DNA from: Olivibacter sp. XZL3
Lineage (GTDB): Bacteria; Bacteroidota; Bacteroidia; Sphingobacteriales; Sphingobacteriaceae
Assembly: GCF_004368405.1 (NCBI RefSeq)
Contig: NZ_SBJH01000042.1
Span: 186,001-250,000, forward strand
Length of the DNA stretch: 64,000 bases
Direction: 5' to 3'
Made by a program: the position numbers and the translations under genes
In this document: positions 1,126 to 55,845 of the stretch, one piece after another
How positions within the stretch are numbered: the stretch's first letter is position 1
Layout of the letters: each line of letters begins with the position of its first letter
The notes under the pieces: model-generated
Seen by the model: the letters and a program-made list of their open reading frames with translations, nothing else
Database searches by the model: none
Told to the model about the DNA's origin: nothing

Positions 1126-1155
1126 AAAAAAACCCGACGTTATGCGCGTCGGGTT
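1126..1155 (-). terminator. trp attenuator terminator hairpin
   Basis: Read on the minus strand, AACCCGACG (1155-1147) pairs perfectly with CGTCGGGTT (1139-1131) around a 7-base loop and runs into seven T (1132-1126). It lies between the leader peptide and trpE, so it ends transcription before the structural gene when the antiterminator does not form. Confidence 0.9.
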
Positions 1156-25469: not shown

Positions 25470-25541
25470 TAGCCCCGACGGGAATCGAACCCATATCTAA
25501 AGTTTAGGAAACTTCTATTCTATCCGTTGAACTACAGGGCC
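25470..25541 (-). tRNA. tRNA-Arg (anticodon CCT)
   Basis: A 72-base cloverleaf on the minus strand: acceptor GGCCCTG/CGGGGCT with discriminator A, D arm around AGTTCAACGGATAGAAT, anticodon stem GAAGT/ACTTT with loop TTCCTAA giving anticodon CCT (reads AGG), and T arm ATGGG-TTCGATT-CCCGT. CCA is not encoded. Its 3' end faces the accessory island, as is common for integration targets. Confidence 0.95.
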
Positions 25542-25705
25542 AATTTGGAAGGCAAACTTAGACAAATTTCCAATTATATGCAATTAACAAAGGAAATAGC
25601 TGTTTTTTCACCGATATTTCATATTACAATATCACAACACTGTAAATATAGTTTTTATTTATAAGGCCATAACAAAATAAGATACTTTAACCTATTAGAA
25701 AGCTT

Positions 25706-28376: not shown

Positions 28377-28384
28377 TAAATTCG
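28377..28384 (+). promoter_or_regulatory. -7 element immediately before mutL
   Basis: TAAATTCG, a one-base variant of TAnnTTTG, ends six bases before the mutL ATG; the full layout TAAATTCG-CAGGGT-ATG leaves almost no 5' untranslated region. A near-identical layout precedes lpxH. Confidence 0.5.
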
Positions 28385-28390
28385 CAGGGT

Positions 28391-30253
28391 ATGTCAGATA
28401 TCATTCAATTACTACCGGATGCAGTAGCCAATCAGATTGCGGCGGGAGAGGTAGTACAACGTCCGGCATCGGCAGTAAAGGAGCTGATCGAGAACGCGAT
28501 TGACGCGGGTGCGGATAAAATACAATTAATTATTAAAGATGCGGGGAAATCACTCATTCAAGTGATAGATAACGGTTGTGGCATGAGCATCACCGATGCG
28601 CGCCTTTGCTTTGAACGCCACGCCACTTCAAAGCTCAGAAAGGCCGAAGATCTCTTTGCTATCCGCACCATGGGCTTCCGTGGCGAAGCAATGGCTTCTA
28701 TTGCTGCTATTGCGCATGTGGAGCTTAAAACGAGGCGGCATGAGGACGAACTGGGAACCTGCATTGTGATTGAAGGTTCGGAAATAGTGAGCCAAGACCC
28801 GATCGCCGCTCCGGCCGGAACCAGCATCAGCGTTAAAAATCTGTTTTTTAATACGCCTGCACGTCGTAATTTCCTCAAAAGTAATCCAGTCGAAACGCGT
28901 CATATTATTGAAGAATTTCAACGTATCGCGTTAGCTCATCCTAAAATCTTTTTTAGCCTACACAGCGATGGTAACGAAATTTTCCGTCTTCCTTCGGAAG
29001 GGCTGAAGCAACGTATCATACACATTTTCGGCAACAACTATAATCAACGCTTAGTACCGGTCGAAGAGTCGACTACCATCATCAATTTAAATGGCTTCAT
29101 CGGGAAGCCGGAATATGCAAAAAAAACACGCGGCGAGCAGTATTTCTTCGTCAATAATCGCTTCATTAAGGATCCATACCTTAATCACGCCGTATTGAAT
29201 GCCTATGAGGAGATCCTCGCTGCCGACAGTTACCCGCTGTATGTCTTATTCATAGAGATCGACCCTTCGCAGATCGATATCAACGTTCATCCCACCAAAA
29301 CAGAAATTAAGTACCAAGATGAGCGGTCGGTATATGCGATTATTCGCTCTGCAGTTAAGCGTTCCTTGGGAAAATACAATATCACGCCTAGTTTAGATTT
29401 CGATCAAGAGACCGGCTTCAGTCACATGATCTCGCAGAAGAAAACGGAAGACATTGTTCCCCCGACCATTTCCTTCAATCCGCAATTCAACCCTTTTGAC
29501 ACAGGTTCCCAACAAAAGGAACGGCAAGACAATTATTCGCGTTCTTTTGATAAAAAAAGTGGCATCCCTCAAAATTGGGATACACTTTATCAGATTTCGG
29601 AAAAAACAAGCCATCAACAGTTAAGCATCGACTCCCGGGATACGAACGACACCACTATCGTTGAAAATGCACAGGAGAAACCGGCGGGAAAACTCATCTT
29701 TCAGATACATAACCGTTTTATTTTATCTCAAATACGCTCGGGCTTTATTTTGATCGACCAGCAAGCAGCGCATGAGCGGATTCTGTTTGAACGTTTTTTA
29801 CAGCAATTGGAAACGCATCAGGGTGCCAGTCAACAAAGTCTTTTCCCGCAAACAGTGGATTTAAGTACCGGCGATTTTGAACTGATAAGGGATCTATTAC
29901 CCGATATTCAGGCATTAGGATTCCAGATTAGGCCCTTCGGAAGAAGCACCTTTATTGTAGAGGGTATTCCGGCTGATTTGGGAAGCGGACTGAGCGAGTC
30001 GCAAGTACTCGAGCAGCTATTGGAGGCCTACAAGAACAACCAATCCAGCTTTAAATTAACTAAACGGGAAAACCTGGCAAGAAGTTTAGCCCGCAATGCG
30101 TCTATAAAGAGTGGTACCATACTGGGCATCGACGAAATGAACGACATCATCGACAAACTTTTTGCCTGTTCAACGCCTAATGTCTCCTTGAGTGGTAAAC
30201 CCATAATTATTACCTTTACCCTCAAGGAACTGTTAGAAAAATTTGAAAAATAG
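28391..30253 (+). CDS. mutL: DNA mismatch repair protein MutL
   Basis: A 620-residue GHKL ATPase that links mismatch recognition by MutS to strand removal. Seen: IAAGEVVQRPASAVKELIENAIDAGA, DNGCGM and GFRGEAMASIAA in the N-terminal ATPase domain (1-330), a variable linker (about 330-430) and a C-terminal dimerisation domain. Near residue 454 it has IDQQAAHERILFE, which keeps the spacing of the endonuclease motif DQHA-x2-E-x4-E but with Gln for His; the CPHGRP metal site reads NVSLSGKP. Nicking activity is therefore uncertain. Confidence 0.96.
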   Translation: MSDIIQLLPDAVANQIAAGEVVQRPASAVKELIENAIDAGADKIQLIIKDAGKSLIQVIDNGCGMSITDARLCFERHATSKLRKAEDLFAIRTMGFRGEAMASIAAIAHVELKTRRHEDELGTCIVIEGSEIVSQDPIAAPAGTSISVKNLFFNTPARRNFLKSNPVETRHIIEEFQRIALAHPKIFFSLHSDGNEIFRLPSEGLKQRIIHIFGNNYNQRLVPVEESTTIINLNGFIGKPEYAKKTRGEQYFFVNNRFIKDPYLNHAVLNAYEEILAADSYPLYVLFIEIDPSQIDINVHPTKTEIKYQDERSVYAIIRSAVKRSLGKYNITPSLDFDQETGFSHMISQKKTEDIVPPTISFNPQFNPFDTGSQQKERQDNYSRSFDKKSGIPQNWDTLYQISEKTSHQQLSIDSRDTNDTTIVENAQEKPAGKLIFQIHNRFILSQIRSGFILIDQQAAHERILFERFLQQLETHQGASQQSLFPQTVDLSTGDFELIRDLLPDIQALGFQIRPFGRSTFIVEGIPADLGSGLSESQVLEQLLEAYKNNQSSFKLTKRENLARSLARNASIKSGTILGIDEMNDIIDKLFACSTPNVSLSGKPIIITFTLKELLEKFEK

Positions 30254-47278: not shown

Positions 47279-47286
47279 TAAGTTTG
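47279..47286 (+). promoter_or_regulatory. -7 element immediately before xseA
   Basis: TAAGTTTG is an exact TAnnTTTG match and ends three bases before the chosen xseA ATG (47290). If used, the transcript starts at or next to the start codon. Confidence 0.5.
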
Positions 47287-47289
47287 GGT

Positions 47290-48837
47290 ATGCCCGAAAT
47301 AATCGCAGATAAAACTATCTTTTCATTGGCAGAAGTAGCTCGCAGCATTCAAAAGACGATTGCCGACCGCTATAAAAGCCTGTATTGGATAAAGGCTGAG
47401 ATGAATAAGCTCAATCACTATTCCCATTCAGGTCATTGCTATCCCGAACTTCTTGAGAAGAAGGAAGGTCGGGTCGTTGCAGAGATCCGGGCAACATTAT
47501 GGAAAAGCGATTATGAACGCATCAACCAACGCTTTATCGAAATCATCAAAGAACCGTTAAAGAATGGGATCAACATTCTGATGCAGGCATCGATCAGCTA
47601 CGACCCTATACATGGTTTGAGCCTACATATTGTAGACATCGACCCTTCCTATTCCCTGGGCGAGTTGGAACGAGAAAAACAGGCCAGTATTGCCACGCTG
47701 AAAGAGCAAGGCCTTTTTGAAGCGAACAAGCTATTGCCTTTTCCCTTACTGCCTAAGCGCATGGCCATCATTTCGGTCGAAACAAGTAAGGGCTTAGCAG
47801 ATTTTTTAAAGATTATCGACAATAACCCTTTCGGTTATCGTTTCGAATATCAGTTATTTCCAGCCCTTTTACAGGGCGAAAAATCAATAACTTCTATTAT
47901 CGATCAGTTAGCGAGCATCCGTTTGCATCTTCAACGATTTGATGTAGTCGCCATTATAAGAGGAGGAGGAGGGGAAGTGGGTTTAAGTTCTTACAACAAC
48001 GTATTATTGGCGACAGCCATTGCCACCTTTCCCATCCCGGTAATCACCGGTATTGGCCATGCCACTAATGAGACCGTTTCTGAAATGGTCGCCTACAAAA
48101 ATTCCATTACGCCCAGTGCATTGGCCGACTACCTTTTGCAGCATTTCCACAATTTTGCGCGCCCCGTCGCCTATGCAGAACAGGTATTACGATTGAAAAC
48201 GAGGCAGGTTCTTGACAATCAGCAGCAAGCGTTAAATAACGCCATCAAGTATTTTAGAATGGCGAGCCTGACTATGCTCCGAGAAAACAAACATCAATTA
48301 GCTGAGTTGCGCAGTCGCACACTTCAACAAAGCAAATACCGATTAATGCAGGAAAGGGGCTCTTTTCAGCACCTAAAAAATCAATTATCTACCCAATCAA
48401 CGCGCGTTTTGTTGGAAAGCCAACAGCGCATAGCCTTTTTAGGGCAGCGATTGAAGCGCGAAAACCTCCATTTAAACAAGCGCTACAGGCAAACCCTCCA
48501 GCAAATCAAAGATCTGCTAATACGGCAAAGTCATCAGATCGCCAAAAAGCAGCATGTAGCCCTGGCAACACTACAGAAAAACCTTACACCTGCTACCGAC
48601 AAATCGCTACAAGAAGCGGCAAAATTACTGGAGAACCAAGAACGCCACTTATCGATACTCGATCCGCAACAAGTATTAAAAAGAGGGTATAGCATCACGC
48701 TTTTGAACGGTAAAGCTGTTAAGGATGCCGGAAACGTCGTTGCCGGAGACCAGGTGAAAACGATCTTGGCTATTGGAGAAATTGAAAGTCGCGTTACTTT
48801 TGTAAAAGAAAACGAAGAAAGCACGGAACATGAATAA
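47290..48837 (+). CDS. xseA: Exodeoxyribonuclease VII large subunit
   Basis: A 515-residue subunit of the exonuclease that degrades single-stranded DNA. Seen: an N-terminal OB fold (about 1-105, SLAEVARSIQKTIADRYKSLYWIKAEM, GHCYPELLEKKEGRV), the catalytic domain with MAIISVETSKGLADFLKII, VVAIIRGGGGEVGLSSYNN and PVITGIGHATNETVSEMVAY, then a long coiled coil (about 300-450) and a C-terminal segment with RGYSITLLNGKAV. The ATG at 47290 is preferred over a TTG two codons earlier, which lies inside a -7 promoter box. Overlaps xseB by 8 bases. Confidence 0.94.
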   Translation: MPEIIADKTIFSLAEVARSIQKTIADRYKSLYWIKAEMNKLNHYSHSGHCYPELLEKKEGRVVAEIRATLWKSDYERINQRFIEIIKEPLKNGINILMQASISYDPIHGLSLHIVDIDPSYSLGELEREKQASIATLKEQGLFEANKLLPFPLLPKRMAIISVETSKGLADFLKIIDNNPFGYRFEYQLFPALLQGEKSITSIIDQLASIRLHLQRFDVVAIIRGGGGEVGLSSYNNVLLATAIATFPIPVITGIGHATNETVSEMVAYKNSITPSALADYLLQHFHNFARPVAYAEQVLRLKTRQVLDNQQQALNNAIKYFRMASLTMLRENKHQLAELRSRTLQQSKYRLMQERGSFQHLKNQLSTQSTRVLLESQQRIAFLGQRLKRENLHLNKRYRQTLQQIKDLLIRQSHQIAKKQHVALATLQKNLTPATDKSLQEAAKLLENQERHLSILDPQQVLKRGYSITLLNGKAVKDAGNVVAGDQVKTILAIGEIESRVTFVKENEESTEHE

Positions 48838-55082: not shown

Positions 55083-55090
55083 TACCTTCG
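55083..55090 (+). promoter_or_regulatory. -7 element immediately before lpxH
   Basis: TACCTTCG, a one-base variant of TAnnTTTG, ends five bases before the lpxH ATG. The stretch TTCGCAGGG-ATG is the same as at mutL apart from one base. Confidence 0.5.
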
Positions 55091-55095
55091 CAGGG

Positions 55096-55845
55096 ATGGT
55101 TGAAAAGAAAAAAATATATTTTGCTTCCGACTTTCACTTGGGTGTACCCACCTATGAGAAGAGTCGCGAACGGGAAGCCCGATTGGTTAGGTGGCTCGAC
55201 TCGATTAAAGACGATGCCGCCGAACTTTATCTTGTGGGCGACATCTTCGACTTCTGGTTTGAATACGCTACCGCAGTTCCGAAAGGTTTTGTAAGGTTTT
55301 TAGGGAAATTGGCCGAACTGGCCGACCATGGCACCAGGATCACGTTCTTTAAAGGGAACCATGATATGTGGATGTTTGGCTACCTAGAGCAAGAACTGGG
55401 AGCGAAAATCATAGCTGATGAATTGATTATTGAGCGACAAGGTAAACGCTTCTATCTGCATCACGGCGATGGCTTAGGCCCGGGAGATGCGAAGTACAAG
55501 TTCCTGAAGAAATTCTTTAGAAGCAAATTTTGCCAATGGCTTTTTGCACGGGTCCATCCTAACTTAGGTATCGGCATCGCCCTACGGTGGTCGCAAAACA
55601 GCAGAATCGTCAACAACAAAAAAGAATGGCGCAAAGAAGCCGAGCAAGAGTGGCTGGTTGTCTACTCGAGGGAAGTATTAAAAAAGGAACATTTCGACTA
55701 TTTGGTTTTCGGCCATCGGCACTTACCGCTGGATATTGAGGTGGGACCAAATAGCCGTTATATTAATCTCGGTGAATGGGTGAACTATAATAGCTATGCT
55801 GTTTTTGACGGAACACATTTGGAGCTGAAAACATTCGAAGGTTAA
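55096..55845 (+). CDS. lpxH: UDP-2,3-diacylglucosamine diphosphatase
   Basis: A 249-residue metallophosphoesterase of the LpxH type, which makes lipid X in lipid A synthesis on the inner face of the membrane. Seen in order: FASDFHLGVP, LVGDIFDFWFEY, FFKGNHDMWMFGYLEQELG, YLHHGDGLGPGDAKYKFLKKFFRS and LVFGHRHLPLD, giving the full set of metal-binding Asp, Asn and His residues. The length is usual. ATG 55096 (MVEKKKIYF) is chosen since the upstream six codons of the frame lie in the promoter. Confidence 0.92.
   Translation: MVEKKKIYFASDFHLGVPTYEKSREREARLVRWLDSIKDDAAELYLVGDIFDFWFEYATAVPKGFVRFLGKLAELADHGTRITFFKGNHDMWMFGYLEQELGAKIIADELIIERQGKRFYLHHGDGLGPGDAKYKFLKKFFRSKFCQWLFARVHPNLGIGIALRWSQNSRIVNNKKEWRKEAEQEWLVVYSREVLKKEHFDYLVFGHRHLPLDIEVGPNSRYINLGEWVNYNSYAVFDGTHLELKTFEG

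Follow-up and report, generated by a model that had tools for sequence, protein, structure and literature searches.

In Olivibacter sp. XZL3, a sequence resembling the -7 box of Bacteroidetes promoters directly precedes the start codons of mutL, lpxH, xseA and a trp leader peptide. All four lie in a stretch of 64,000 nucleotides (contig NZ_SBJH01000042.1, positions 186,001 to 250,000; hereafter the window). Do these boxes direct transcription that begins at or next to the start codon, and is this layout regular in the organism and its relatives?

Boxes next to start codons in the window

The four boxes, first pointed out in a preliminary description of this DNA, are found in place when read directly from the letters. 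On the plus strand, the mutL box TAAATTCG (28377–28384) is followed by the spacer CAGGGT, which puts it 6 nt before the ATG at 28391, where mutL (28391–30253) begins. The lpxH box TACCTTCG (55083–55090) and the xseA box TAAGTTTG (47279–47286), also on the plus strand, lie 5 nt (spacer CAGGG) and 3 nt (GGT) before the ATG codons of lpxH (55096–55845) and xseA (47290–48837). The gene names are right: MutL and XseA score above the NCBIfam cut-offs (TIGR00585, 537.6 bits, cut-off 180; TIGR00237, 296.5 bits, cut-off 180), and LpxH is the best match for its gene, though below cut-off (PRK05340, 99.5 bits, cut-off 134). The window's MutL is nearest to that of Olivibacter domesticus (87%). These three genes are the sole ORFs of at least 100 amino acids in the window with an ATG 3–7 nt after a box.

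The boxes have TTCG at mutL and lpxH, TAAG at xseA and TAGG at the trp leader; a middle-position G is absent from the mutL and lpxH boxes. The sequence TAAGTTTG also occurs on the minus strand at 25553–25560, 11 nt ahead of a tRNA-Arg (5′ end at 25541), which suggests that the genome makes use of boxes whose fourth position is G.

The trp leader lies on the minus strand. Its box, TAGGTTTG (1266–1273, read 1273–1266), is followed by the seven bases CTTCATC, and the ATG of the leader peptide (1258–1256) begins at the eighth base, as the preliminary description had it. The peptide MTINTTIRNWWWPVKNSAGSTYNGID (1178–1258) has 26 residues and three Trp codons, and is conserved in two genomes of the same genus (G052 and G037); the box is kept in both. 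After the peptide comes a terminator-like hairpin, recognized by eye, of AACCCGACG and CGTCGGGTT with a T run (1131–1155, minus strand). Further downstream is a TrpE-like ORF, which scores below the full-length cut-off (279.6 versus 517.7 bits) because it is cut by the window edge. With tandem Trp codons (WWW), a terminator-like hairpin and a trp gene downstream, the leader has the features of an attenuator with a near-leaderless peptide, and we regard it as a predicted one. An alternative box upstream, TAACTTTG at 1313–1306, is not conserved: G052 has TAACTTTA in its place, and G037 lacks it. Elsewhere in the genome (contig C93, 211634), trpS also has an abutting box, TATTTTCG, at 7 nt. The Trp-tRNA synthetase gene and the peptide of the Trp attenuator thus have the layout in common.

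Excess over chance and conservation

The preliminary description had proposed counting boxes near starts against shuffled sequence. We did so in a sample of 690 kb of the 5.36 Mb genome, window included, in which 486 genes were called by an order-5 in-frame Markov model; a codon-only caller (272 genes in 450 kb) missed genes and was dropped. As background, the 60 bases preceding the starts were dinucleotide-shuffled 200 times; d counts the bases that separate box and start codon, and the counts pool boxes ending in TTTG and TTCG. A box at d 3–7 is found in 21 of the 486 genes, versus 2.5 ± 1.5 in the shuffles (shuffle maximum 7; Poisson P about 3e-13), and all 21 genes start with ATG. At d 8–13 the count is at background level (4 versus 2.9). 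It rises to a leadered peak at d 14–31 (54 versus 8.9), followed by 25 versus 9.9 at d 32–51. The distance distribution is therefore bimodal, with background level between the modes, and the earlier suggestion that leaderless placement is regular in Olivibacter sp. XZL3 stands. Net of background, abutting boxes make up about 23% (13–34%) of the consensus-box promoters that lie within 52 nt; longer leaders are outside this denominator, so the true share is lower.

Conservation was followed in 61 genomes of the family Sphingobacteriaceae, with 241 orthologues of five genes. Those examined include mutL in 58 of 60 genomes, gltX in 41 of 61 and 25 of the 28 matched xseA genes; one lpxH (G060, contig edge) and one xseA (G043, no alignment) were left out, and 11 xseA genes are doubtful, having a non-ATG start or one that departs from the aligned start by more than one codon. 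Most consistent is tilS, with a d 3–7 box in 46/59 orthologues from 19/24 genera and none at d 8–13. Such boxes also precede 23/41 gltX orthologues (8/17 genera), 14/25 of xseA (6/12 genera), 24/58 of lpxH (11/24 genera) and 17/58 of mutL (8/22 genera). Because tilS and gltX were picked for their box in the XZL3 genome, their rows from its own genus are not independent. Outside this genus, the fractions are 42/55 for tilS, 19/37 for gltX, 21/54 for lpxH, 10/21 for xseA and 13/54 for mutL.

Individual genes differ in detail. The abutting mutL box is present in Olivibacter, Parapedobacter and the listed Sphingobacterium loci (named records), and is absent from nearly all Mucilaginibacter and Pedobacter loci, with P. 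cryophilus (L073) as an exception. Eight mutL orthologues have boxes at d 8–13, corresponding to leaders of about 3–8 nt, so the gap between the modes is not absolute. The lpxH genes of two genera, g7 and g12 (L115, L121, L125, L127), carry the last-base variant TACTTTTA rather than TACTTTTG, 5–6 nt before the ATG; these variants were not counted among the d 3–7 boxes. Of 102 conserved boxes in the family, 15 have G at a middle position. In 160 kb of G052 and G037, scanned without recourse to annotation, there are 10 ORFs of at least 100 amino acids with a box 3–7 nt before ATG. Six of them represent mutL, xseA and lpxH, each present in the two genomes; the other four are unshared.

Leaderless mRNA uses an AUG start, and other starts are poorly used. 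Consistent with this, ATG is the start in all 124 orthologues with an abutting box, versus 100 of the 117 without, the remaining 17 having TTG or GTG. The Fisher value for this contrast (2.4e-6) is only indicative, since the rows are related, and hence non-independent, and the choice of starts mildly favours ATG. Genus g5 shows this most clearly: in 4/4 of its genomes lpxH starts with TTG and the box lies 15–20 nt upstream.

Sigma-ABfr promoters have a -33 TTG or TTTG about 19–21 nt upstream of the -7 box. Among the 124 conserved cases, 34 (21 of them tilS) have a TTG 18–20 nt ahead of the abutting box, versus about 2 per position elsewhere, and this spacing is close to that of leadered promoters in the XZL3 genome. 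By eye, the mutL, lpxH and xseA boxes of the window have no TTG at 18–20 nt. A Kozak-like A at -3 was tried as a discriminator and rejected (5/21 leaderless versus 26/69 leadered genes, not significant). An A at -6 occurs in 0/21 leaderless and 28/69 leadered genes, a contrast that proves nothing because the box occupies that position in most cases.

The layout extends beyond the family. In 29 genomes of the class Bacteroidia, TAHHTTTG-N4-ATG occurs 2288 times versus 1197 in the reversed control, with an excess in 29/29 genomes; TAHHTTTG-N10-ATG occurs 1145 times versus 1215. Abutting boxes are thus a general feature of the class, and the genes that carry them vary. A tilS gene was matched in 59 of 60 class genomes, XZL3 included. 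Outside the family, only 4 of the 29 tilS orthologues examined have a d 3–7 box, one of them with GTG, so conservation of the tilS box is a family trait. In one genome sample (G016), 7 of 136 genes have a box at d 3–7 and 7 at d 14–31; another genome (G100) has 108 versus 15 pattern matches, which would point to a very high leaderless share, though its 163 kb sample (4 of 108 genes at d 3–7, 13 at d 14–31) is too small to judge this by. Most of 89 genomes outside the class have no N4 excess, as judged by eye from unsummed counts. Three genomes of family f22, outside the class (G158, G162 and G170), show an N4 excess without an N10 excess (G158: N4 30 versus 7, N10 6 versus 3). Abutting boxes may thus also occur outside the class.

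Proposed mechanism and alternatives

In published transcription-start maps, the -7 box lies at -12 to -5, and 4 or 5 nt separate it from the transcription start (PMC6847099, PMC9723704). By this rule, +1 falls on the A of AUG when d is 4, and d 5–7 leaves up to 3 nt. For xseA (d 3), the 4-nt rule puts +1 on the U of AUG, and polymerase would have to initiate only 3 nt past the box. The preliminary description had predicted that, if the boxes are used, transcription begins at or within a few bases of the start codon. The box excess at d 3–7, the conservation, the exclusive use of ATG and, in part of the cases, the TTG spacing agree with a start about 0–3 nt from the ATG. Going by box position only, transcription is predicted to start no more than about 5 nt from the start codons.

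We propose that mutL, lpxH, xseA and the trp leader peptide have promoters for the Bacteroidetes primary sigma factor, with the -7 box fixed 3–7 nt before the ATG. RNA polymerase would start at the A of the AUG or no more than 3 nt ahead of that base, and the ribosome, which in this phylum works without Shine-Dalgarno pairing, would take the 5′-terminal AUG directly. One element would then be both promoter and start-selecting element, in which case CAGGG and the other spacers would be just the bases between box and AUG. That the four are leaderless, with 5′ ends and translation as predicted here from the DNA, is in our judgement highly probable. The genes with abutting boxes include housekeeping genes (tilS, gltX, trpS, mutL, xseA, lpxD, lpxH, ribD, panD, queG and tsaE), and our guess is that the layout is used for steady low-level expression of such enzymes.

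Could the boxes be accidents of a short motif in AT-rich upstream regions? In the window as a whole, TAnnTTyG is hardly enriched (120 matches versus 108 expected), which speaks for chance. The excess at d 3–7 next to background level at d 8–13, the conservation in orthologues and the contrast of N4 with N10 in all 29 class genomes make this explanation very unlikely and refute it for abutting boxes as a class; about 2–3 of the 21 single genes could still be due to chance. The spacer itself had been put forward as an initiation signal of its own, since mutL and lpxH both read TTCGCAGGG before the ATG. However, CAGGG precedes only 2 of 444 ATG-start genes. Among orthologues with the box in place, it is found in 3 of 102, all in the window's own genus, and the mutL spacer is CAACGT in G037 and CAGCAAT in G015, while that of lpxH is CGTCG in G052. 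Genome-wide, TANNTTYGCAGGG occurs 6 times versus 4 for the reversed control. Called genes begin at only two of these six sites, mutL and lpxH; another site (L004) has an ATG with no gene called. Being neither conserved nor recurrent, the signal has next to nothing to recommend it, and the shared CAGGG is a spacer coincidence.

Two further explanations accept the promoters as real. Same-strand genes end 30 nt upstream of mutL and 44 nt upstream of lpxH, so these two may also be transcribed from upstream, and promoters of the upstream genes might even mainly serve them, with the leaderless transcript a minor internal product. We think the latter improbable: upstream sequence diverges across genera while the box alone is kept in relatives, and no same-strand gene was called just upstream of xseA or of most of the 21 genes. 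Alternatively, as start codons are predicted or assigned by homology, the true ones could lie downstream, the ATG at the 5′ end being an upstream AUG only. Yet most orthologues of mutL and lpxH and most close ones of xseA align from residue 1 or a few residues off, the ATG of each of the 124 orthologues with an abutting box is in the homologous frame, and leadered promoters show no enrichment of ATG 3–7 nt after the box (4/72). A downstream start is therefore hardly to be expected, and we retain leaderless initiation from abutting promoters as the preferred reading.

A broader proposal goes further and is doubtful. A defined housekeeping set (tilS foremost, with lpxH, gltX, xseA and mutL) might be kept leaderless by selection in Sphingobacteriaceae, whose ribosomes pay no heed to Shine-Dalgarno sequences, with leaders of about 4–9 nt avoided. 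Genes would then belong to one of two translation classes, forming a translational regulon written in promoter position. If this is true, changes in ribosome composition or in the balance of initiation factors could play the two classes off against each other.

Comparison with known systems

Bacteroidetes do without Shine-Dalgarno pairing, and their leaderless genes have been sought by Pribnow-type models or in RNA data from few species. The distance from box to ATG is a simple, annotation-light way of sorting leaderless from leadered genes and corrects start annotation. It also supplies named, conserved candidates for asking how Shine-Dalgarno-blind ribosomes choose start sites.

The box is the same as that of sigma-ABfr/sigma-A promoters (-33 TTTG, -7 TAnnTTTG), and we assumed an equal geometry from box to transcription start. 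This consensus is in excess here at both distances (21 versus 2.5 at d 3–7, 54 versus 8.9 at d 14–31). Unlike in the sigma-ABfr type, the box in our candidates abuts the start codon. They also differ from TAHHTTTG in that TTCG and a middle G are tolerated in some conserved cases. In F. johnsoniae (PMC6847099), T at -6 and the lack of G at -10/-9 are near-invariant and the -33 element is weak. The mutL and lpxH boxes, with TTCG, depart from the T at -6. The rule of no middle G, derived from F. johnsoniae only, is broken by the xseA and trp boxes.

Leaderless genes of Actinobacteria and Deinococcus-Thermus (PMC3160421) likewise have the promoter box directly before the start, with another, Pribnow-like sigma consensus. 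That survey of 953 bacterial genomes, based on Pribnow-like boxes, detected such genes in 1 of 37 Bacteroidetes/Chlorobi genomes and notes that it probably undercounts in this group.

Published RNA data give minority figures for leaderless mRNAs: 3.7% of 5′ UTRs under 10 nt in Bacteroides thetaiotaomicron (PMC7366714), 5.5% in Flavobacterium psychrophilum (PMC9723704) and, in F. johnsoniae (PMC6847099), about 13%, given that 87% of leaders there exceed 10 nt. The three species share phylum, promoter class and a leaderless minority beside a leadered class with the present case; leaderless mRNAs as a minority in Bacteroidetes are already known. Within the open-licence literature, searched by title and the start of the abstract, we found no report on leaderless genes in Sphingobacteriaceae. 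The share estimated here from sequence, about 23% within 52 nt, is higher than the RNA values of the three species, a loose comparison because long leaders are left out of our figure. Unlike those RNA data, our analysis shows family-wide conservation of gene identity. As far as the literature was searched, the new elements are this gene-specific, family-wide conservation and a share, estimated from sequence, that exceeds those published.
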